Source: a virus
Reading direction: 5' to 3' (one strand)
Length of the DNA: 41,478 nt
IMG/VR virus record: IMGVR_UViG_3300017753_003779
Span: 1-41,478 of that record
In this document: positions 5,855-28,092 of the stretch, one piece after another
Layout: each line of letters begins with the position of its first letter
How positions within the stretch are numbered: position 1 is the stretch's first letter
Translations under genes and position numbers: made by a program
Notes under the pieces: model-generated
The model's database searches: none
Told to the model about the DNA's origin: nothing
The model's input: only the letters and a program-made list of their open reading frames with translations

Positions 5855-6097
5855 ATGACTTTATTACTAGCACTCATCTCATTCGCTCAAGCAGAACCCC
5901 AAAACATTGAAGCAAAAACTCAAGAAGTCACATATATCGACTTCTCTGATGTGGAACTGACAGCAGAACTCACCAAACCTAGCGTCATCTTTGTGGCACC
6001 AATCAGACAACCTGCCAAGCCAGACTTGCTGATCCCAGATGTACGACAACTCTTCCTCGACAAAGAAGCAGCAAAGCACTCACGAGCAAGCAAATAA
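5855..6097 (+). CDS. Small exported protein, unknown function
   Basis: 80 residues starting with a short signal-peptide-like segment (MTLLLALISFAQA, with AQA at residues 11-13 as a possible signal peptidase site). The mature part is soluble, Pro- and Glu-containing, and ends in KHSRASK. Periplasmic location is likely if the signal works; it is short and lacks a basic n-region, so some doubt remains. Preceded by CCAAGGAAACTCAA. Confidence 0.65.
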   Translation: MTLLLALISFAQAEPQNIEAKTQEVTYIDFSDVELTAELTKPSVIFVAPIRQPAKPDLLIPDVRQLFLDKEAAKHSRASK

Positions 6098-6102
6098 CAA
6101 AA

Positions 6103-6131
6103 GTGCAACTGCCCTAAATGTGTGGTATACT
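6103..6131 (+). promoter_or_regulatory. Early-type promoter 13
   Basis: GTGCAAC at 6103-6109, 16 bp, TATACT at 6126-6131 with extended -10 TGG. Confidence 0.85.
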
Positions 6132-6157
6132 ATATTCACACCCCAACCAAGGTAAAT

Positions 6158-6625
6158 ATGAAAATCAAACTCTACAAACAAGTCAAAACCCCGTTTGGAA
6201 CACGCCCAGAAGAACTTCCTCCCACAACAGTCTTTGTCACGGATGAAGAAGGTGTGATCCACCGTAATCCTGATATCTTAGAACAAGACGGTGACTGTGT
6301 TGTAATCAAATATGATTGGAACCCGGCAGGAGAACCCGAAGAGCGAATGGGAACCGCAGTCGCACTCGCTATGCTCACACCAGCAGAAGCTCTGCGAATC
6401 GCTAAACGAAGTCAGCTTGTTGCACAAATCAATGGCAAACATTTCGAATGGTGGCCAGGAAACAGACGGGAATCACCCCAGTGGTGTGCAGGTTACCGAA
6501 AGAAGCGAGGCACTCGGACACACCTCATCCCAGTTACTGATGAGCAGGCACTAGGTCTCATTCACGGAACACACAAAATCTCATACTGGACTTACACAAA
6601 CCGATGCGAAATCACTGCAGCTTAG
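6158..6625 (+). CDS. Phage hypothetical protein
   Basis: 155 residues from the ATG at 6158 after CCAAGGTAAAT; the frame is open 36 bases further upstream, within the promoter. Two parts are visible: residues 1-70 look beta-rich (IKLYKQVKTPFGTRP, FVTDEEGVIHRN), and 90-155 carry many Trp, Arg and His residues (HFEWWPGNRRESPQWCAGYR). No family recognised. Confidence 0.75.
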   Translation: MKIKLYKQVKTPFGTRPEELPPTTVFVTDEEGVIHRNPDILEQDGDCVVIKYDWNPAGEPEERMGTAVALAMLTPAEALRIAKRSQLVAQINGKHFEWWPGNRRESPQWCAGYRKKRGTRTHLIPVTDEQALGLIHGTHKISYWTYTNRCEITAA

Positions 6626-7672: not shown

Positions 7673-7756
7673 GCCTCGGTGGTGGAATAGGTAGACACAT
7701 CAGACTTAAAATCTGACGGCTGTACAGCTGTGCCGGTTCAAGTCCGGCCCGAGGCA
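7673..7756 (+). tRNA. tRNA-Leu (anticodon UAA)
   Basis: A type II tRNA: acceptor stem GCCTCGG (7673-7679) pairs with CCGAGGC (7749-7755), discriminator A at 7756, anticodon stem TCAGA/TCTGA with loop CTTAAAA (anticodon TAA), long variable arm, and T-arm GCCGGTTCAAGTCCGGC. CCA is not encoded. It decodes UUA, a codon common in the AT-rich late genes of this phage, so it may offset a codon-usage mismatch with the host. Confidence 0.95.
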
Positions 7757-7766
7757 CTTACATTCG

Positions 7767-9441: not shown

Positions 9442-9744
9442 ATGAAACTCAACAGAAAACACATTAGAAAAATGATCTTGCAAGAAATGTCAGCGGCTGC
9501 GTACGGCCGCGGTATGAAACAGCAAGATACACTCGCTAGTCAAACTAGCTTCCCAGCGTCGGATGCAGTTATCGAGGGTCTCTTAATGGTTGTGGGTAAT
9601 GATGACAGTCCTGAGACTCAAGATGCAAGAAGCGCGATATATACACTTCAAGATGCATTAAACCCAGATGAACTCAGGGACGCGTTATACGATGTTGAGA
9701 GTTACATATCGATTGCTTTACGACAAAAATATAATCTCATATAA
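9442..9744 (+). CDS. Small leader-bearing protein, candidate packaged internal protein
   Basis: 100 residues. It begins MKLNRKHIRKMILQE, then MSAA; LQE at residues 13-15 fits the (L/I)xE cleavage signature of T4-type prohead proteases. The remainder is soluble and acidic (DAVIEGLLMVVGNDDSPE) with no recognised domain. Six other proteins in the window begin in the same style. By analogy with T4 internal proteins it may be packaged in the capsid, processed and injected. Confidence 0.75.
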   Translation: MKLNRKHIRKMILQEMSAAAYGRGMKQQDTLASQTSFPASDAVIEGLLMVVGNDDSPETQDARSAIYTLQDALNPDELRDALYDVESYISIALRQKYNLI

Positions 9745-9762
9745 GCCTTAAGCATTGCCTAA

Positions 9763-9813
9763 TTTCTCACAAAAATTTCTTTTGAACTTTTGGTGAACCT
9801 TTAGATAGTTATA
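9763..9813 (+). promoter_or_regulatory. Repeated intergenic element with AGATAGTTATA (copy 2)
   Basis: TTTCTCACAAAAATTTCT at 9763-9780 and AGATAGTTATA at 9803-9813, again 40 bases apart, 18 bases before the ATG at 9832. The middle part differs from copy 1, so the two boxes rather than the whole element are conserved. Confidence 0.6.
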
Positions 9814-9831
9814 TACAACATTGGAGATATA

Positions 9832-10119
9832 ATGAGATTAACAAGAAGACAATTACAAAACATGTTATTAGAAGAGGTAAGTGCACTTATAAGCGAAGCT
9901 GATGGTCCACCTTACGACATGTATCGAGAAGAAGAGATGCGTCGTGTATTTGGTGAGTTGGATGGTGACTGGTGGAATGGACCTCCAGATCGTCCGGGTG
10001 TGTTGAGTGATGTAAGTGAGGATGCTTTAAAGTCGTTGGGTGAATTCTTAAAGAAAGACCCAGCTTGGAGAGCATGGTATGAGGGTCTTGCTGACGACGG
10101 AACCGGTGGAACAGCTTAA
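9832..10119 (+). CDS. Small leader-bearing protein, candidate packaged internal protein
   Basis: 95 residues, beginning MRLTRRQLQNMLLEEVSAL; LEE (13-15) and ISE (20-22) are possible processing sites. The rest is acidic with many Trp and Gly (ELDGDWWNGPPDRPGVLSD, ending DDGTGGTA). No known domain. It is the tandem neighbour of the gene at 9442, with its own AGATAGTTATA element. Confidence 0.75.
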   Translation: MRLTRRQLQNMLLEEVSALISEADGPPYDMYREEEMRRVFGELDGDWWNGPPDRPGVLSDVSEDALKSLGEFLKKDPAWRAWYEGLADDGTGGTA

Positions 10120-10127
10120 GCTTTAAA

Positions 10128-10194
10128 TTCTCACAAAAATTTCTCCGGAAAATTTTAAAAAACTATTGTAACCGTGATAGAAACGGTGTATGAT
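10128..10194 (+). promoter_or_regulatory. Third intergenic element followed by an early-type promoter
   Basis: TTCTCACAAAAATTTCT at 10128-10144 repeats the element of the two preceding genes, but instead of AGATAGTTATA there is TTGTAAC (10166-10172), 16 bp, TATGAT (10189-10194). Just downstream, GTTAACGCTAAC (10201-10212) is an inverted repeat that could be an operator. The next 90 bases are a gene-free leader for the viperin operon. Confidence 0.65.
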
Positions 10195-10301: not shown

Positions 10302-10898
10302 ATGAAAAATAGTATTCCAAATGACCTCATACAATTGTTAGACATATTCAACACACTGGACGGAATGCCAGTGCAGAACTTTTACACGTGCCGAGTCGGT
10401 GCAATGGGGCGAGTAATCGATCCACATCGTGTTATCGTTTCAGTCGATAGTACAAAAGAAAAAGGAATTCGTGCTGATCGTATCGATGACCTTACACAAC
10501 ATAGCAAGGTCGACCATAATCCACTAGTGGAGCCTTTGTCAGTTGTTGTCGCGTATTTCCCGAAGAAAAATCGCTTTAAGTTTTACGTAAAAAAGAATCC
10601 GGCGAATATCCGGGGAGCCATCGCTAACCTCAGTTTATTGCCTGATTTCAAGAATCACGTGCGTGATGAAGAATATATTGCAAGTTGGAAGATCCACACA
10701 GCGACAAGTAAAATATTTCCGGGCAAGTTTTCTGAACCTGAGATTCTCGAGTTACTACAAAGCGATCACTTCTACACGAAGTGTGCCTCTCAGGTTTCTC
10801 GTTATTTGCGATTGAATAGTGTTCAGGACAAAAGTTATCAGGTCGAGATATCGCCTATAACTGACGTCTCACGTTTTCAGTTCACTTCTAGACAATAA
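10302..10898 (+). CDS. Unknown protein in the viperin operon
   Basis: 198 residues, basic, soluble, ATG after ATAGGAGATTGCA. No P-loop, kinase or other motif was found; segments such as VIVSVDSTKEKGIRADRIDD and LSVVVAYFPKKNRFKFYVKK suggest an alpha/beta fold. It lies 12 bases before the viperin gene and shares its promoter. Cellular viperin operons often include a nucleotide kinase, but this protein does not look like one. It may support, regulate or give immunity to the viperin product. Confidence 0.8.
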   Translation: MKNSIPNDLIQLLDIFNTLDGMPVQNFYTCRVGAMGRVIDPHRVIVSVDSTKEKGIRADRIDDLTQHSKVDHNPLVEPLSVVVAYFPKKNRFKFYVKKNPANIRGAIANLSLLPDFKNHVRDEEYIASWKIHTATSKIFPGKFSEPEILELLQSDHFYTKCASQVSRYLRLNSVQDKSYQVEISPITDVSRFQFTSRQ

Positions 10899-10910
10899 TA
10901 GGGGTGACAT

Positions 10911-11792
10911 ATGAATATACCTACGCAGGGACGAGTGTCCCTTCCTGTCGCACTTAACTGGCATTTCGAGCCTCGTTGTAACTACCGGTGTAAATTCTGT
11001 TTTGCACACTTCGCGGATATAGAAGAAAAATCCGATTATCCTATCCCTAAACTTTACGCAGATCTCTATACACGAGGTGTTCGCAAGATTACCTTTGTTG
11101 GTGGAGAACCCATGTTAGATCGCCGTATTGATCACAGAATCACTTTGGCAGCAGAGATGGGTTTTACCACATGTTTAGTGACTAATGGCACCAAAGTCAC
11201 ACCTCGTTGGCTAGATAAAATGCGTGTGCACCTTCATTGGATTGGTTTTTCTATTGACGCGTCGAATGATCATTTGCATGCTTTGATTGGTCGTGGTCGA
11301 GCTGGCGAGATTAAAAAAGGTTATAGTAAGCATCTTGAGCGTTCTCTTGTTAGTTGGAATGCTGCTAAGGTATTGGGTTATAATCTTAAGCTGAATACTG
11401 TCGTTTGTCGGCATAATCGTTATGATAACATGTCTGAGTTAGTTGCGCGGCTCGCGCCTGATCGCTGGAAGGTTTTCCAGGCATTGCCTATTAAGGGTGA
11501 GAATGATCATGTATGGGATGAGTTAGAGATTTCGAGTGAGGAGTTTTCTGCTTGGGTCAGCCGGCATCGACATTTATTGCCTGTTGTTGAGTCTAATGAT
11601 TTGATGACTGGGAGTTATTGCATGCTTGATGGTAAGTTGAGGTTTTATAATAATGTGGGAGGTGAGTTTAAGCATAGTACTCCGATTCCTGAAGTGGGTA
11701 TGGATCGCGCTTGGGCGGAGATTGAGTCGATGTTTAGTGACGATGTTTTCTCGGGTCGTGGTGGTATTTGGTCTTGGGAGGTGACGAAGTGA
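10911..11792 (+). CDS. Viperin-family radical SAM enzyme
   Basis: 293 residues. The iron-sulphur motif C23-x3-C27-x2-C30 (PRCNYRCKFCF) follows NWHFE, as in animal and prokaryotic viperins. Other family landmarks are FVGGEPMLD, LVTNGTKV, GFSIDAS, IGRGRAG, the block RWKVFQALPIKGEN, VVESNDLMTGSYCMLDGKLR and the C-terminal GRGGIWSW. Viperins convert CTP and, in bacterial members, other NTPs to 3'-deoxy-3',4'-didehydro nucleotides that terminate RNA chains of viral polymerases. Membership is inferred from the full-length pattern. Which nucleotide is used cannot be told. From about 11280 the coding strand is notably G- and T-rich, unlike the neighbours, which hints at transfer. Confidence 0.9.
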   Translation: MNIPTQGRVSLPVALNWHFEPRCNYRCKFCFAHFADIEEKSDYPIPKLYADLYTRGVRKITFVGGEPMLDRRIDHRITLAAEMGFTTCLVTNGTKVTPRWLDKMRVHLHWIGFSIDASNDHLHALIGRGRAGEIKKGYSKHLERSLVSWNAAKVLGYNLKLNTVVCRHNRYDNMSELVARLAPDRWKVFQALPIKGENDHVWDELEISSEEFSAWVSRHRHLLPVVESNDLMTGSYCMLDGKLRFYNNVGGEFKHSTPIPEVGMDRAWAEIESMFSDDVFSGRGGIWSWEVTK

Positions 11793-12139
11793 GTTGTGTT
11801 CATTTAGGATCTGGTCGGCCGATGATGGTATTTTATAGTAAGGCTGATGCGCGACGATATGCTAAGACATGTAAGCGGAAGCATCGTAAGTTAGTGCCTT
11901 ATCGCTGTGCGCGTTGTGATAAGTGGCATTTGAGGACTCGTTTAAATGATGCACATTATCGGGTGTGTAAGTGTCGGGATCATCGAGGTCGATTGAAGCG
12001 TGCTTATTTAGATCGTGATGAGATTGAAGTTGTGTGTGAGAAGATAAATGATAAAGCTAGGTGTGAAGTAGTAAAAGTTTATGAGTGTCCTGAGTATTAT
12101 GATGTTTGGCATTTGACGCATGTAGTGAGGGATGAGTAG
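11789..12139 (+). CDS. Small zinc-ribbon-like protein after viperin
   Basis: 116 residues from a GTG at 11789 in a GTGA overlap with the viperin stop, 6 bases behind GGAGGTGA; a TTG further upstream is less likely. Cys and His pairs suggest zinc binding: YRCARCDKWHLR, then VCKCRDH, and at the C-terminus a related YECPEYYDVWHLTH. The repeat of the xWHLx pattern suggests two modules, the second missing a Cys. Basic overall (KTCKRKHRK). It is translationally coupled to viperin and closes the operon before a terminator. Confidence 0.75.
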   Translation: MSCVHLGSGRPMMVFYSKADARRYAKTCKRKHRKLVPYRCARCDKWHLRTRLNDAHYRVCKCRDHRGRLKRAYLDRDEIEVVCEKINDKARCEVVKVYECPEYYDVWHLTHVVRDE

Positions 12140-12203
12140 AGAGTAGTGAGCTGAGGAGGGCCCGCAGGGGTCCTACTCGGCGTTCATAGGGTAGCCCTAG
12201 CTC

Positions 12204-12228
12204 GCGCCAGTTGACACTGGCGCTTTTT
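12204..12228 (+). terminator. Rho-independent terminator of the viperin operon
   Basis: GCGCCAG (12204-12210), loop TTGACA, CTGGCGC (12217-12223), then TTTTT. It isolates the viperin operon from the next leader-bearing gene. The 65 bases before it (12140-12203) contain GGGCCC and other dyads but no gene. Confidence 0.9.
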
Positions 12229-12271
12229 AATTTTCTCCGAAAAATTTCGCTAGGATTAATGATTGTTTTCT

Positions 12272-12300: not shown

Positions 12301-12582
12301 ATGAAATTAAATAGAAGACAATTAAGAAGTTTACTTTTGCGTGAAGTAAGAATTTTATCTGAGAAGAAGGGCGAATCTGCAGCGGCGCAAAAAGAAGCTG
12401 AAGAGCAGTTTGGTGAAGACGGTAAAAAAGCAGTCGGTGTAGGTAAATTAATGAATGATGTTAATATGGCACGACGACTAGCAGAGCAAAAATGTAAGAT
12501 GAAAGGTGGAAAATCTGGTAAAAAGATTGAGCAGATGAAGCACGATGGTGCGACTTACATTGTTTGTATTATGAACAAATAG
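12301..12582 (+). CDS. Small leader-bearing protein, candidate packaged internal protein
   Basis: 93 residues from the ATG after CTGGAGTTAAT; an in-frame ATG 18 bases upstream lies between the promoter element and the ribosome site. Leader MKLNRRQLRSLLLREVRIL with LRE (13-15) and LSE (19-21). The remainder is Lys/Glu-rich, then Gly-Lys-rich (KCKMKGGKSGKKIEQMK), ending with a short beta-like segment (GATYIVCIMNK). No known domain. Confidence 0.75.
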   Translation: MKLNRRQLRSLLLREVRILSEKKGESAAAQKEAEEQFGEDGKKAVGVGKLMNDVNMARRLAEQKCKMKGGKSGKKIEQMKHDGATYIVCIMNK

Positions 12583-12761: not shown

Positions 12762-12974
12762 ATGCAATTTACTAAGTCAAAAAACACAAAACGTTTCAAT
12801 TTTAACATCAGTCGTGACTCTAAGTCTCACAAAGCAGGATCAAACACAGTAACAATTACTACTAGTCCATCAGATGATTCTTATTTTACTTCACGTTCAC
12901 AGATTACTATGACTGTTAAAGAAGCAAAAGCGTTCCAGAACTTTTTAAATTCTTATATTGATGGCAACAGCTAA
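12762..12974 (+). CDS. Small basic protein, unknown function
   Basis: 70 residues, basic at the start (FTKSKNTKRFNFNISRDSK) and Ser/Thr-rich in the middle, with beta-like strands (NTVTITTSP, SQITMTV) and a C-terminal helix. ATG after ATAGGAGAAAATAC. Monocistronic between its promoter and the terminator at 13008. No family recognised. Confidence 0.75.
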   Translation: MQFTKSKNTKRFNFNISRDSKSHKAGSNTVTITTSPSDDSYFTSRSQITMTVKEAKAFQNFLNSYIDGNS

Positions 12975-23608: not shown

Positions 23609-24787
23609 ATGTCAGTATTTAAGAATCATAAAACAGTTGCTGATCGATCAGCTTCAGATAGAAGAAGGCACAAAGAAAAGATTGAGAGAGCAATTAAAGA
23701 AGGCATACATGATATTGTCGCTGAAGAAAGTATTATTGGTCAAGATGGTAAAAAGAAAATTAAAATACCTGTTAGAGGTATCAAAGAATACCAGTTCATA
23801 TATGGAACGGGTAATGGTACTAAAGGAGTTGGATCAGCACAAGGTCAAGATATACAAAAAGGTCAAGTAGTAAGAAAACCTAATCAGAAAGGTAAAGGTA
23901 AAGGTAAGCCAGATAAACCCGGTAATGAAGCAGGAGAAGAATACTACGATGTCGAGGTTTCATTAGATGAGTTAGCAAAGTACTTGTTTGATGATTTAAA
24001 CCTACCTGAACTTAGTAAGAAACAGAATAACACTGTGACATCTGAGAGGATAAAAAGAAAAGGGTATCGTTCAAAAGGTATTAATGCCAGATTATCAAAG
24101 AAAGAGACGCTTAAAAACAAGATACGAAGAAAAAGTCAATCAATTAAAAATGGAACATTTAATCCAGATGATGAAGAAGCTAGATTTCCTTTTCATGAAG
24201 ATGACTTAAAGTATAAACACATTGAGGTAACTAAAAAACCAATAACTAATGCAGTAATATTTATGATTATGGATGTTTCTGGATCAATGACAAAGCGCAA
24301 AAAATTCTTGGCACGATCTTTTTTCTTTTTGCTTTACCAGTTTATTAGATACAGGTACCAGAACATAGAGTTAGTATTTATATCTCATACAACAGAAGCT
24401 AAAGAAACAAATGAAGATGACTTTTTTAAAAAAGCTTCATCGGGAGGAACACATATCTCATCAGGTTTAGAAAAAGCTGAACAAGTAATACAAGAGAGAT
24501 TTAACCCATCAAGTTGGAATATTTATACTTTTCACTGTTCAGATGGAGAAAATTGGGTCGAAGATAACAAGAAAGCTCTAGATAAAATGAGAAATTTAAT
24601 CAATATAAGTCAACTTGCTGGCTATATTCAGATTAAAGGTTCACAAGAATCAATGTGGGGAGAAGAGATGGCTAAAGTTTTTGAACCTTTAACTTGCGAT
24701 AAATTTAAAATAGTAAGATTGAGAAATAAAAAAGATGTATGGCCCCAGTTTTCTAAACTATTTGGAGGTAAATATGAGCTTATCTGA
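23609..24787 (+). CDS. yeaH: YeaH/YhbH family protein (DUF444, VWA-like)
   Basis: 392 residues, near the family length. N-terminal RSASDRRRHKEKIERAIK and the region FIYGTGNGTKGVGSAQGQ fit DUF444. The C-terminal half is a von Willebrand A-like domain with MIDAS D222-x-S-G-S-M. In bacteria yeaH is partnered with yeaG (prkA). ATG after TATAGGAAAAATT. It overlaps the SpoVR gene by 14 bases, making a tight operon with it and PrkA. Confidence 0.88.
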   Translation: MSVFKNHKTVADRSASDRRRHKEKIERAIKEGIHDIVAEESIIGQDGKKKIKIPVRGIKEYQFIYGTGNGTKGVGSAQGQDIQKGQVVRKPNQKGKGKGKPDKPGNEAGEEYYDVEVSLDELAKYLFDDLNLPELSKKQNNTVTSERIKRKGYRSKGINARLSKKETLKNKIRRKSQSIKNGTFNPDDEEARFPFHEDDLKYKHIEVTKKPITNAVIFMIMDVSGSMTKRKKFLARSFFFLLYQFIRYRYQNIELVFISHTTEAKETNEDDFFKKASSGGTHISSGLEKAEQVIQERFNPSSWNIYTFHCSDGENWVEDNKKALDKMRNLINISQLAGYIQIKGSQESMWGEEMAKVFEPLTCDKFKIVRLRNKKDVWPQFSKLFGGKYELI

Positions 24788-26102
24788 GTATACAACAAAA
24801 GATTTAAAAGAGTGGGATGATAAAATATGTAATATTGCAGAGGGCTATGGTTTAGACTGGCATGAAATTACATATGAAATCTGTGACTATTATGAGATGA
24901 TTGGACATATGTCATATCACGGAATGCCTAGCCACTACAATCATTGGTCTTACGGAAAAACTTTTGAAAGAACACATTTAAACTACAATATGGGACAAAG
25001 TGGTTTACCTTATGAGATGATCATAAATTCAAACCCGTCGATTGCGTATTTAATGCTTCAAAATCCACTTTACTTGCAGATATTAATTATGGCACATTGC
25101 GTAGGACATAGCGATTTCTTTAAAAACAATAGATGCTTTAAAGATACTGATCCTGAACATATCGTTTCTCGAATGAGAAATGCAAAAAAGAGAATACAAG
25201 GTTATATTGAGGATCCTCTAATAGGACAAGAAAAAGTAGAATCCTTTTTGGATAATCTCCACGCGATAAAATACCAGACAAATCGATACGGTGTACCAAG
25301 ACAAACACGTAAAGAAATAAAAGACAGAGAGATTAGAAGATACAATGTATATAAAGAAAAGGGTATTTTATTGGACTATGAAGGATTAGAAAATAGAAGA
25401 TTACTAAAACCTGATCATGATATGCTTTCTTTTTTTACAGAGTATTATCCGGACAAATTTAGAAACTGGCAGTTAGACTTATTAGAAATTGTAAAACAAG
25501 ACAGTTGGTATTTTATGCCACAAATACAGACAAAAATATTAAATGAAGGTTGGGCATCTTTCTGGCATTACAAAATACTTCATGATTTAAAATTACCAGA
25601 TTCAATGCACTTACCGTTTTTAAAAATGCACAATGCAGTCGTCAGGCCACATCTAGGTGGTGTTAACCCATATCATGTAGGTTTTTATATTTTTCAGAAA
25701 ATGGAAAGAGAACACGGTTTAGAAAAGTGTTTTGAAGTAAGAGATAATCACGACGACGTAGCTGCTTTACGAATGTTATTAGACGAAGAAGATTTTAGAG
25801 AATTAAATTTCTTCGCATATGAAAATAAAAAAGATGGCAGTGCGGTTGTTTCTGAAGTAACAGACCATGACGATTGGAAGACAGTTAGGAATGAAATGAT
25901 TAGAAACACCGGTATTAATATGATACCTCACATATACGTCGACAGAGTAGATAGTGACGGTGCATTAGTTCTTAAACACGAACACGATGGAAGAGACTTA
26001 GACTTAGACTATGCAGATAAAGTAATGGACCATATTAGAGAAGTTTGGGACAAAGAAGTTAAACTTTTTACAATTATTGAAGAAGAAGTTTGGGAAATTT
26101 AA
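24774..26102 (+). CDS. spoVR: SpoVR/YcgB family protein
   Basis: 442 residues from the ATG 6 bases after GGAGG; an ATG 39 bases earlier is within yeaH and has no ribosome site. Landmarks: PSHYNHWSYGKTFERT, MGQSGLPYEMIINSNPSIAY, MAHCVGHSDFFKNN, NEGWASFWHY and HLGGVNPYHVGF, all typical of SpoVR. Its biochemical role is unknown, but genetically it belongs with PrkA and YeaH in stationary-phase and sporulation physiology. Having all three partners in order in a phage argues that they work together here. Confidence 0.9.
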   Translation: MSLSEYTTKDLKEWDDKICNIAEGYGLDWHEITYEICDYYEMIGHMSYHGMPSHYNHWSYGKTFERTHLNYNMGQSGLPYEMIINSNPSIAYLMLQNPLYLQILIMAHCVGHSDFFKNNRCFKDTDPEHIVSRMRNAKKRIQGYIEDPLIGQEKVESFLDNLHAIKYQTNRYGVPRQTRKEIKDREIRRYNVYKEKGILLDYEGLENRRLLKPDHDMLSFFTEYYPDKFRNWQLDLLEIVKQDSWYFMPQIQTKILNEGWASFWHYKILHDLKLPDSMHLPFLKMHNAVVRPHLGGVNPYHVGFYIFQKMEREHGLEKCFEVRDNHDDVAALRMLLDEEDFRELNFFAYENKKDGSAVVSEVTDHDDWKTVRNEMIRNTGINMIPHIYVDRVDSDGALVLKHEHDGRDLDLDYADKVMDHIREVWDKEVKLFTIIEEEVWEI

Positions 26103-26157
26103 GTATTTTACACCCAGAACGTATTAATTAATATATGAAACAGGAGAGGTATATCTT

Positions 26158-28092
26158 ATGGCACGCAAAAATGAATTGTTAAAACTCATACAGAATCAAA
26201 GAAACAAAAAAAAGAAGGAAAAATTTGAAGGTACATTTATAGAGTATTTAGAATTAATTAGAGATAATCCAGATAAAATAAAATTAGCGCACAAAAGATT
26301 GTATGAAACAATTTGTAGTCATGGTATCGATACTGTAGATGTCGACTCAGATGTGTATAGAGATATTTTTAATGGTGATAAAATAAGGACATACGATTAC
26401 TTCAAGAAAGAATTCTTTGGAATGGAATCGGTAATTAATAAGTTAATGAGATTTCTTAAGTCAGCTGCACACAAAGGTGAAGAAAGTAGACAAGTTCTTC
26501 TTTTAATGGGCCCAGTAGGCGCCGGAAAATCAGCACTCACAGAACATATTAAAAGCGCGCTTGATGGCCAAAGATACTTTCATCTAGAAGGAGATCCTCA
26601 GAGAGGTGAACCCCTGCAGTTAATTCCTAGATCTTTACGAAATGACATGGAAGATATTTTAGGGGTAACAATAGAGGGTGACTTAAGTCCAGTTGCTAGA
26701 TGGAAGTTATTAAATGAATACGAAGGTAAATACGAGAATTTTAAAGTTGTTGAATCTACTTTTTCTCAGAGGGGTAGGAGAGGAATTGCTGTAGTTCCTC
26801 CTATGGATGCCAATTCACAGGATACTTCTGTATTAATTGGAACTGAGGACATTAGTAAACTAGATCTTTATCCTGAAGATGACCCACGCGTACTCTCCTT
26901 AAACGGTGCGTTTAACGTAGGTAACAGGGGTATTGTTGAGTTTGTTGAAGTGTTTAAAAACGAAATTGAATTTTTACACACTATGCTAACAGCAACACAA
27001 GAAAAACGTGTTCCAACGCCTGGAAAGCATGATATGGTTTTTTTCGACGGAGTAATTCTCGCTCATTGTAACGAAAGTGAATGGAATAGATTTAAATCTG
27101 AACATACTAATGAAGCAATTTTAGATAGGGTTGTTAAGATAAATGTTCCTTATGTGCTAGAGTTAGATCAAGAAATGAAAATATATCAAAAAATGATAAA
27201 AAGGTCAGACTTTAGAAATGCACACATCGCCCCGCATACTTTAAAAGTAGCGTCAATGTTTTCAGTTATGAGCCGGCTCCAACCTTCTAATAAGTGTGAC
27301 ATGTTGACAAAAATGAAGATATACAATGGTGAAGCAATTATTGAAAAGGGAAGAGTTAAAAAGGTTGACATTAGAGACCTTAAAGATGAAGCAAAGCATG
27401 AAGGGATGGAGGGCATATCCACAAGATTTATTATGAAAGCTTTAGATTCAGCACTTTCAGATTCTGACAACGAAATGATCACGCCTATTAATGTAGTAGA
27501 CTCTCTAATTAAACAAGTCAAAGAACAGATAATTGACGAAGACGCGAAGACAAGATATCTTGAAATTCTACAAAAAGTTATTCGCGAAGAATATTTGAGA
27601 ATTCTAGAAACAGAAATAGCAAAAGCATTTATTACTGCTTATGAAGAACAAGCACAATCGTTATTTGATTCTTATTTAGATAATGCTGAGTGTTATACAA
27701 CAAAGACTAGAGTTAAGGATAAAATCACTAGGGAAGAACGCGATCCAGACGAAAAATTTATGAGAACAATAGAAGAAATGATCAGTGTTACAGGATCTGC
27801 TAGAGACGGATTTAGAAACGATGTAACTGCTTATATGTTTTCTAAAATGAGAAAAGGTGAAACAGTAGACTATAAGTCTTATGGGCCACTTAAAGAAGCA
27901 ATTGAACAGTATCTAATTACATCTGTTAAAGATATAGCGCGTATTGTGACACGTTCAAAGTCAAGAGATGATGATCAGAAAAAGAAATACACAGATATGA
28001 TTGGTACTTTAATTGAAGAATATGGTTATAACGAAAGTTCTGCTGAGGAGATATTAACTTATGCAAGTAACAACCTCTGGCGAGATTCATAA
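26158..28092 (+). CDS. prkA: PrkA (YeaG) AAA+ protein, serine kinase or protease
   Basis: 644 residues, full length. Walker A G118-PVGAGKS-125 and the signature segments GEPLQLIPRSLR, NRGIVEFVEVFKNEIEFLH and DGVILAHCNESEW identify PrkA. The C-terminal part, described as kinase-like in the family, is present (GPLKEAIEQYLI, near the end ILTYASNNLW). PrkA was described as a serine kinase and later in Bacillus as an AAA+ ATP-dependent protease. ATG after CAGGAGAGGTATATCTT. Preceded by 55 gene-free bases that may hold a promoter. Confidence 0.93.
   Translation: MARKNELLKLIQNQRNKKKKEKFEGTFIEYLELIRDNPDKIKLAHKRLYETICSHGIDTVDVDSDVYRDIFNGDKIRTYDYFKKEFFGMESVINKLMRFLKSAAHKGEESRQVLLLMGPVGAGKSALTEHIKSALDGQRYFHLEGDPQRGEPLQLIPRSLRNDMEDILGVTIEGDLSPVARWKLLNEYEGKYENFKVVESTFSQRGRRGIAVVPPMDANSQDTSVLIGTEDISKLDLYPEDDPRVLSLNGAFNVGNRGIVEFVEVFKNEIEFLHTMLTATQEKRVPTPGKHDMVFFDGVILAHCNESEWNRFKSEHTNEAILDRVVKINVPYVLELDQEMKIYQKMIKRSDFRNAHIAPHTLKVASMFSVMSRLQPSNKCDMLTKMKIYNGEAIIEKGRVKKVDIRDLKDEAKHEGMEGISTRFIMKALDSALSDSDNEMITPINVVDSLIKQVKEQIIDEDAKTRYLEILQKVIREEYLRILETEIAKAFITAYEEQAQSLFDSYLDNAECYTTKTRVKDKITREERDPDEKFMRTIEEMISVTGSARDGFRNDVTAYMFSKMRKGETVDYKSYGPLKEAIEQYLITSVKDIARIVTRSKSRDDDQKKKYTDMIGTLIEEYGYNESSAEEILTYASNNLWRDS

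Follow-up and report, generated by a model that had tools for sequence, protein, structure and literature searches.

A phage-encoded viperin in an accessory two-gene cassette, and viperins in several viral lineages

Introduction

Few antiviral enzymes are as well conserved between archaea and humans as viperin, which is known as a cellular defence. Which use, then, might a virus make of a gene with the landmarks of viperin? The question is raised by a locus in IMG/VR record IMGVR_UViG_3300017753_003779, a metagenome-derived viral contig of 41,478 nt whose whole length is referred to as the window. An earlier note, made from the letters of the window, had proposed that a phage encodes its own viperin in a three-gene operon with its own promoter, operator-like dyad and terminator.

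The enzyme family itself is already known. As described in passages of three articles, viperins convert CTP, UTP or GTP to ddh-analogues that stop RNA synthesis, and they can inhibit T7 RNA polymerase in E. coli (PMC9642334, PMC10732462, PMC12926258). Viperin in phages is mentioned as well: one sentence in the available part of a study of the Schizotequatrovirus accessory genome reports "viperins", based on two DefenseFinder runs, one of them without cut-offs (PMC12028318). The partial texts returned by a literature search that covered few subscription journals contain no account of viruses acquiring viperin more than once, of a clade restricted to viruses or of a partner such as gene 3 described below.

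The gene product is a member of the viperin family

First, we focus on the identity of the gene. Its product (Table 1) carries C23xxxC27xxC30, NWHFE, GGEP, RWKVFQALPIKGEN, ESN and GRGG, among them the landmarks read in it by the earlier note, and scores 243.6 bits over residues 14-284 against the prokaryotic viperin model NF038283 (curated cut-off 180). A search including the pVip clades, as the note had proposed, gives 233.1 bits (E 8.9e-70) with the PADLOC pVip model for "viperins not associated with kinases", and the best match among PDB sequences is a mouse viperin structure (E 7.2e-39). The eukaryotic viperin model TIGR04278 yields 132 bits, below its cut-off of 450, and the MoaA model TIGR02666 (GTP 3',8-cyclase) 52 bits versus a cut-off of 284.

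C23, C27, C30 and GGEP (G64-P67) are invariant in an alignment of 15 sequences. The residues of mouse viperin that bind CTP or UTP, which we take to be N77, K120, R194, K220, N222, R245, K247 and Y302, are all kept in the window viperin (N16, K59, R128, K160, N162, R185, K187 and Y236). The position of mouse S124 is occupied by V63 in the window viperin and by A in the fungal enzyme. An AlphaFold2 model built with the 15 aligned sequences as input has a mean pLDDT of 88.7. With this predicted model as Foldseek query, viperin chains fill ranks 1-30 (E 1.7e-22 to 1.9e-16), SkfB (3e-12) and MoaA (7e-12, from rank 32) trail behind, and the TM-score on the query is 0.74-0.84 for vertebrate viperin structures.

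To place the protein among its relatives, we used a tree of 96 sequences. Its cellular members stem from a scan of 84,980 genomes with two motifs, of which the best 80 of 190 loci were kept, so that the tree holds only part of the distant cellular viperins. MoaA served as outgroup, as it does in two published viperin trees (passages of PMC10732462 and PMC12988326); the "SAND-type" outgroup named in the earlier note is a misnomer, since SAND is a synonym of viperin according to a passage of PMC9642334. The window viperin falls inside the viperins with MoaA outside, a placement to be read with a rough root, as the single MoaA outgroup sits on a very long branch (8.85) and the bootstrap had not settled. 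The window viperin groups with that of viral contig L003 (support 100/99); the pair is joined by the marine archaeal L018 and L019 (98/83) and then by L017 (100/96). The stem of the window group is long (0.83), and identity to L017-L019, which belong to Poseidoniales and unclassified Euryarchaeota, is 42-45%. MoaA, QueE and other radical SAM enzymes are thus ruled out by the family models, the tree and the Foldseek ranking.

The gene is under purifying selection: between the window and L003, the nonsynonymous proportion is 0.115 and the synonymous proportion 0.811, compared to 0.150 and 0.681 for UvdE, a shared comparison gene. Judged by sequence and modelled fold, the product is a genuine member of the viperin family (SAND, ddhNTP synthases) with predicted catalytic activity.

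Viral location, phage type and host

The viperin gene is located in viral DNA. The 61-kb viral contig IMGVR_UViG_3300020469_005555 is 100% identical to the window over 14,593 bases, and its far end matches T4-like baseplate wedge. Two further viral contigs carry related viperins, L003 (85% identical) and L008 (82%, truncated by the contig end); both have the same next gene after viperin and downstream neighbours common to the window. That the viperin is encoded by a phage is borne out alike by its family matches, its predicted fold and its place in the tree, and by the sister contigs and other related viruses.

The 136-kb contig of a relative, G029, has genes for a terminase and a portal, for the major head protein and the head maturation protease, and for tail sheath and tube; of the nine proteins annotated, two had no match. 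Neither terminase nor sheath was detected in the window or in G001-G003, all of them fragments. With the T4-type gene set seen in G029 and the baseplate wedge matches of its own virus, the window virus qualifies as a large T4-type tailed bacteriophage. G029 also carries bacterial-type RecA, DnaB-like and gp32-like proteins. Hence, a bacterial host is likelier than an archaeal one, and an archaeal virus, an idea derived from the Poseidoniales-like viperin, is disfavoured. As the best cellular relatives of the viperin are archaeal and the replication genes of the phage look bacterial, donor and host may differ.

The window further contains a tRNA-Leu (TAA) gene and consecutive genes for DUF444, SpoVR and PrkA kinase (Table 1). 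PrkA homologues occur in 16 phage records, 11 being from Thermus phages and 4 from uncultured phages of 595-642 kb.

Table 1. Coordinates of features in the window and in related viral records.
Feature	Record	Position	Strand	Remarks
tRNA-Leu (TAA) gene	Window	7673-7757
Leader-bearing gene (MRLTRRQLQNMLLEE...), upstream of cassette	Window	9832..10119	+	ORF list, leader comparison
Weak sigma70-like promoter candidate, TTGTAA-17-TATGAT, upstream of gene 1	Window	10166..10194	+	Pattern scan, count within chance
Gene 1, orphan	Window	10302..10898	+	198 aa, not part of conserved unit
Viperin (radical SAM ddhNTP synthase family)	Window	10911..11792	+	293 aa, ATG start, intact ORF
Gene 3, predicted tandem alpha/beta zinc-ribbon-like protein, two WHL motifs	Window	11789..12139	+	116 aa, GTG start, overlaps viperin stop
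R1, conserved noncoding element, predicted structured RNA, ~87 nt	Window	12140..12226	+	Directly after gene 3
R1	L003	3003-3083
R1	L008	852-938
R1	L206	2090-2176
R1	L180	629-714
R1	L210	1563-1648
R1	L208	124-203
R1	L209	11689-11768
Intrinsic terminator, 8-bp stem 12204-12223 then T run	Window	12204..12231	+	3' end of R1 element
Leader-bearing gene (MKLNRRQLRSLLLREV...), downstream of cassette	Window	12301..12582	+	ORF list, leader comparison
Conserved 70-aa neighbour	Window	12762..12974	+	Used to find locus in relatives
DUF444, SpoVR, PrkA kinase genes	Window	23609-28092
Viperin in head/tail block	L119	4456-5355
Viperin in head/tail block	L120	7983-8837
Viperin in head/tail block	L121	1954-2823

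Viperin is coupled to a small, predicted zinc-ribbon-like protein

The conserved unit at the locus comprises two genes, viperin and gene 3. The three-gene operon of the earlier note was dropped because gene 1 finds no match in L003; the L008 contig ends before that position, and one scan of viral contigs, suited to close relatives only, matched only the same virus. In profile searches, gene 1 belongs to no family and has a single weak PHROGs match (E 0.035).

Gene 3 overlaps the end of viperin in all three viperin-bearing viruses of the group, where GGGAGGTG followed by a GTG or ATG overlapping the TGA is kept; this places the start in the window at GTG 11789. An upstream TTG start would add 7 residues, all with pLDDT under 50. 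Gene 3 of the window shares 47% identity with that of L003 and 78-80% with that of L008, and one scan of viral contigs found homologues only in these three viruses. Its model (pLDDT 73, three sequences) shows a repeated unit of helix and beta-hairpin with a WHL motif. Family searches with gene 3 gave weak matches only (SprT 19.4 bits, cut-off 113; RYYR-CCHC 14.5 bits, cut-off 27; best PHROGs match E 5e-4), and a structure search of BFVD with the model gave no match at E<=0.001.

A motif scan detected no TMK/CMPK-like P-loop ORF within 2.5 kb of the window viperin; the same scan was positive at 5 of 100 loci, some of them incomplete. According to a passage of PMC11249213, only 15% of bacterial viperin genes adjoin a CMPK2-like kinase.

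The G/T-rich coding bias ascribed to the operon is real in the window, where the third-position G/T fraction is 0.74 for viperin and 0.82 for gene 3, compared to 0.37-0.69 for the other 25 measured genes. It is weaker in L008 (0.64 and 0.74) and absent in L003 (0.46 and 0.55), and because of this absence the bias is rejected as a functional feature. In the window viperin, C falls from 0.22 to 0.13 between the two parts of the gene.

Expression signals, the R1 element and leader-bearing genes

Of the signals that the cassette had been thought to own, the terminator and the flanking leader-bearing genes are there, whereas promoter and operator are not borne out. A promoter scan gave 10 sites where shuffles lead one to expect 7.7 (sd 2.7), a count within chance; TTGTAA-17-TATAAT lies upstream of the L003 viperin. 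At the place of the operator-like dyad, only short inverted repeats were seen (17 pairs in 221 bases). The terminator scan found one terminator, with 1.6 expected by chance. L008 has a scanned terminator at 919-932, and L003, where the scan gave none on the + strand, has one at that spot by eye only; both have T-rich ends after the same conserved stretch.

This stretch is R1, to which the terminator belongs and which relatives free of viperin carry too. In all 9 records of the phage group that were searched, a covariance model hits R1 once, irrespective of whether viperin is present. The records represent 8 distinct viruses, of which 6 built the model and 2 (L208 and L209) lie outside it. R1 has no Rfam match over threshold. 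Fold z-scores are -4.85, -1.47 and -2.83. Covariation is weak, with 87.4% of cells paired (reached by 3 of 500 shuffles) and a covariation score reached by 110 of 500 shuffles, and the R1 structure is therefore given as a prediction. A role of R1 as part of a viperin system is rejected on account of its presence in five relatives without viperin.

An N-terminal leader resembling MKxTRRQLRRLIxE is common to many otherwise different genes at 9442-10119 and 12301-12582 of the window, and arrays of such genes are also found in L180, L206, L008 and L209 (partly by eye). Given the T4-type head protease in G029, the leader may target packaged proteins to the capsid. Repeated palindromes like ATTTCTCCGGAAATTT, exact or diverged, are placed before gene 1 and before leader genes (window 9382, 9760, 10137 and 12229), and boxes like TAGATAGTTATA precede leader-gene starts in the window.

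The cassette is accessory

Upstream of R1, the window, L003 and L008 have viperin and gene 3. Leader-bearing genes take this place in L206, L180, L210 and L209, and the L208 record ends there. Viperin over the cut-off is found in none of these five other relatives, whose records are fragmentary; two of them have weaker radical SAM matches (56-57 bits) elsewhere in the record. The cassette is thus accessory, since five relatives are without viperin and four of them have leader genes at that spot. From the gene order in these fragments, it seems to be gained and lost at a single place within a series of leader genes.

Viperins in other viruses

Two scans of 2.9 million viral contigs with viperin alignments gave 25 candidate viral records, and 17 of these exceed the viperin cut-off. 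Partial viperin matches (117-131 bits) are present in G003, G010 and G021, and five further candidates have weaker radical SAM matches. On the 96-sequence tree, the 17 virus rows amount to 6 label changes, a number as low being reached in 0 of 500 shuffles.

Several viral lineages can be told apart. The first consists of the window and L003 with marine archaeal viperins. The second is an all-viral clade (100/100) of nine viral contigs with 47-88% mutual identity (L009, L010, L011, L012, L013, L114, L116, L117 and L123). No cellular row lies inside this clade, a result that holds for cellular viperins with the motifs of the genome scan, because one motif is carried by 5 of the 9 clade members and neither by the other 4, and motif-less cellular members would be missed. 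The records of L009, L010 and L013 match a terminase profile, which also matched 11 of 14 control genomes and is not specific alone. Some records of the clade have terminase-like, thymidylate synthase or Sak4-like genes. The third lineage, L119-L121, stands near Psychromonas and Pseudoalteromonas viperins and lies in a portal/tail gene block. Portal and tape measure are present in L120, and a minor tail protein in L121. In the fourth lineage, L014 is placed beside methanogen-related archaea and its record has a terminase-profile match (E 1.8e-30). L115, with a weak terminase match (E 9.5e-4), and L109 would be a fifth and a sixth lineage; their viral status is less sure, coming mainly from the IMG/VR class, and four viral lineages remain without them.

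Four queries with viperins against 50,697 phage records matched 10, 0, 11 and 0 of them, with no clear viperin. The matches are partial, and the one that covers >80% of a query has 24% identity. Three partial matches, including this one, were scored and reach 52-66 bits, so that 0 of 3 pass the cut-off of 180. The four queries matched no Vibrio phage; the viperins of Schizotequatrovirus are those reported in PMC12028318. In a plasmid control search with the window query, which returned 14 records, the 10 matches listed share 29-37% identity and 9 of them are annotated as viperin family.

Discussion

Which use might the phage make of its viperin? By analogy with cellular viperins, we infer an antiviral benefit, and the role most likely to be played by the enzyme would be to block rival viruses with ddhNTPs. 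Viperin is intact and shares an accessory cassette with a small, predicted zinc-ribbon-like protein coupled to it in translation, the R1 RNA and its terminator coming next. It would remove water from CTP, UTP or GTP by radical SAM chemistry and thereby supply a chain-terminating ddhNTP. The phage itself would transcribe with the multi-subunit polymerase of its host. If this polymerase tolerates ddhNTPs, as it probably does, the product would act on superinfecting viruses or satellites whose polymerases are more sensitive, and would thus serve as a weapon between viruses. Gene 3 might act as a regulator, a partner or a protective factor. The N-terminal domain of the RNAP beta-prime subunit is found in none of 9 fragmentary records of the phage group (14 of 14 controls positive), which is compatible with dependence on the host polymerase but, coming from fragments, weak evidence. 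A search for T7-type polymerases gave 0 of 9 with a control that was silent throughout, and carries no weight here. Exclusion of T7-like phages, as proposed by the earlier note, is a reasonable hypothesis. On balance, we lean towards a T4-type phage with an accessory viperin and gene 3 that makes ddhNTPs against rival viruses.

More tentatively, and with doubt prevailing, this reading might be extended to viruses of bacteria and archaea at large. Viperin would have been acquired by them more than once and retained for conflicts between viruses, at least one virus-only lineage being long-lived. In the phage group of the window, the phage-specific protein of gene 3, made together with viperin, would be its partner and might, for instance, control the enzyme or shield phage transcription.

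The enzyme might instead be directed at the host, with ddhNTPs or a drain on the NTP pool slowing host metabolism or transcription early in infection. Passages of PMC9642334 describe that ddhCTP inhibits NAD-dependent GAPDH activity and alters nucleotide pools in animal cells, in line with such a use. The position of viperin among leader-bearing accessory genes fits it too, but a phage that relies on the host polymerase would harm its own transcription. Moreover, cellular viperins are tolerated by their bacteria. We therefore consider a host-directed role unlikely.

Prophages and satellites are known to carry defence systems, as described in a passage of PMC9122126, and viperin could be ordinary defence cargo of this kind, a cellular gene picked up and useful only in a surviving host, either a lysogen or a carrier state. 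The viperins of L119-L121, located in a head/tail block, may belong to prophages. For the window virus, the T4-type gene set in its relative G029 argues against such cargo, which seems an improbable explanation as well; no lysogeny gene came to notice in the incomplete genomes.

A changed chemistry, in which the enzyme would act on another nucleotide substrate or help to make a modified nucleotide that the phage needs itself, with gene 3 in the pathway, appears very improbable. It could account for the long stem of the window group and for the new conserved partner gene in 3 of 3 viperin-bearing viruses of the group, yet the eight substrate-binding residues presumed from mouse viperin are kept. 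Finally, misbinned host DNA or a chimeric contig, conceivable because all records are metagenome-derived contigs, can be ruled out for practical purposes given the identical 14.6 kb in a second record and the 82-85% homologues in the same gene neighbourhood of two further viral contigs.

If the preferred reading of a weapon between viruses holds true, viruses themselves would deploy a broad-spectrum nucleotide chain terminator, made by an enzyme that was acquired several times and is under purifying selection. Viral viperins may then supply new ddhNTP synthases. This raises the questions of which ddhNTP is made, how the phage tolerates the product and which viruses are excluded.

Comparison with known systems

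The window viperin has a full-length match, the cluster motif, substrate-binding residues and a modelled fold in common with prokaryotic viperins (pVip or SAND), but it is encoded by a tailed phage and coupled to gene 3. Vertebrate viperin (RSAD2; PDB 5vsl, 5vsm, 6q2p and 6q2q) shares 36% identity, the same modelled fold and the presumed active-site residues. Vertebrate viperin also features an N-terminal ER-targeting extension, which the window viperin lacks. The viperin of the Poseidoniales locus L018 is overlapped by a TMK/CMPK-like kinase gene (5882-6499), whereas the phage cassette has no kinase neighbour. Schizotequatrovirus, as far as the available part of PMC12028318 goes, is alike in that viperin is claimed in large tailed phages. 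A parallel in organisation is provided by phage-carried defence cassettes such as the P2/P4 hotspots described in a passage of PMC9122126, where an accessory cassette likewise sits at a site that is fixed in related phages but varies in content. They differ in that the effector here is a nucleotide-analogue synthase, predicted from its family, and the phage group is T4-type.
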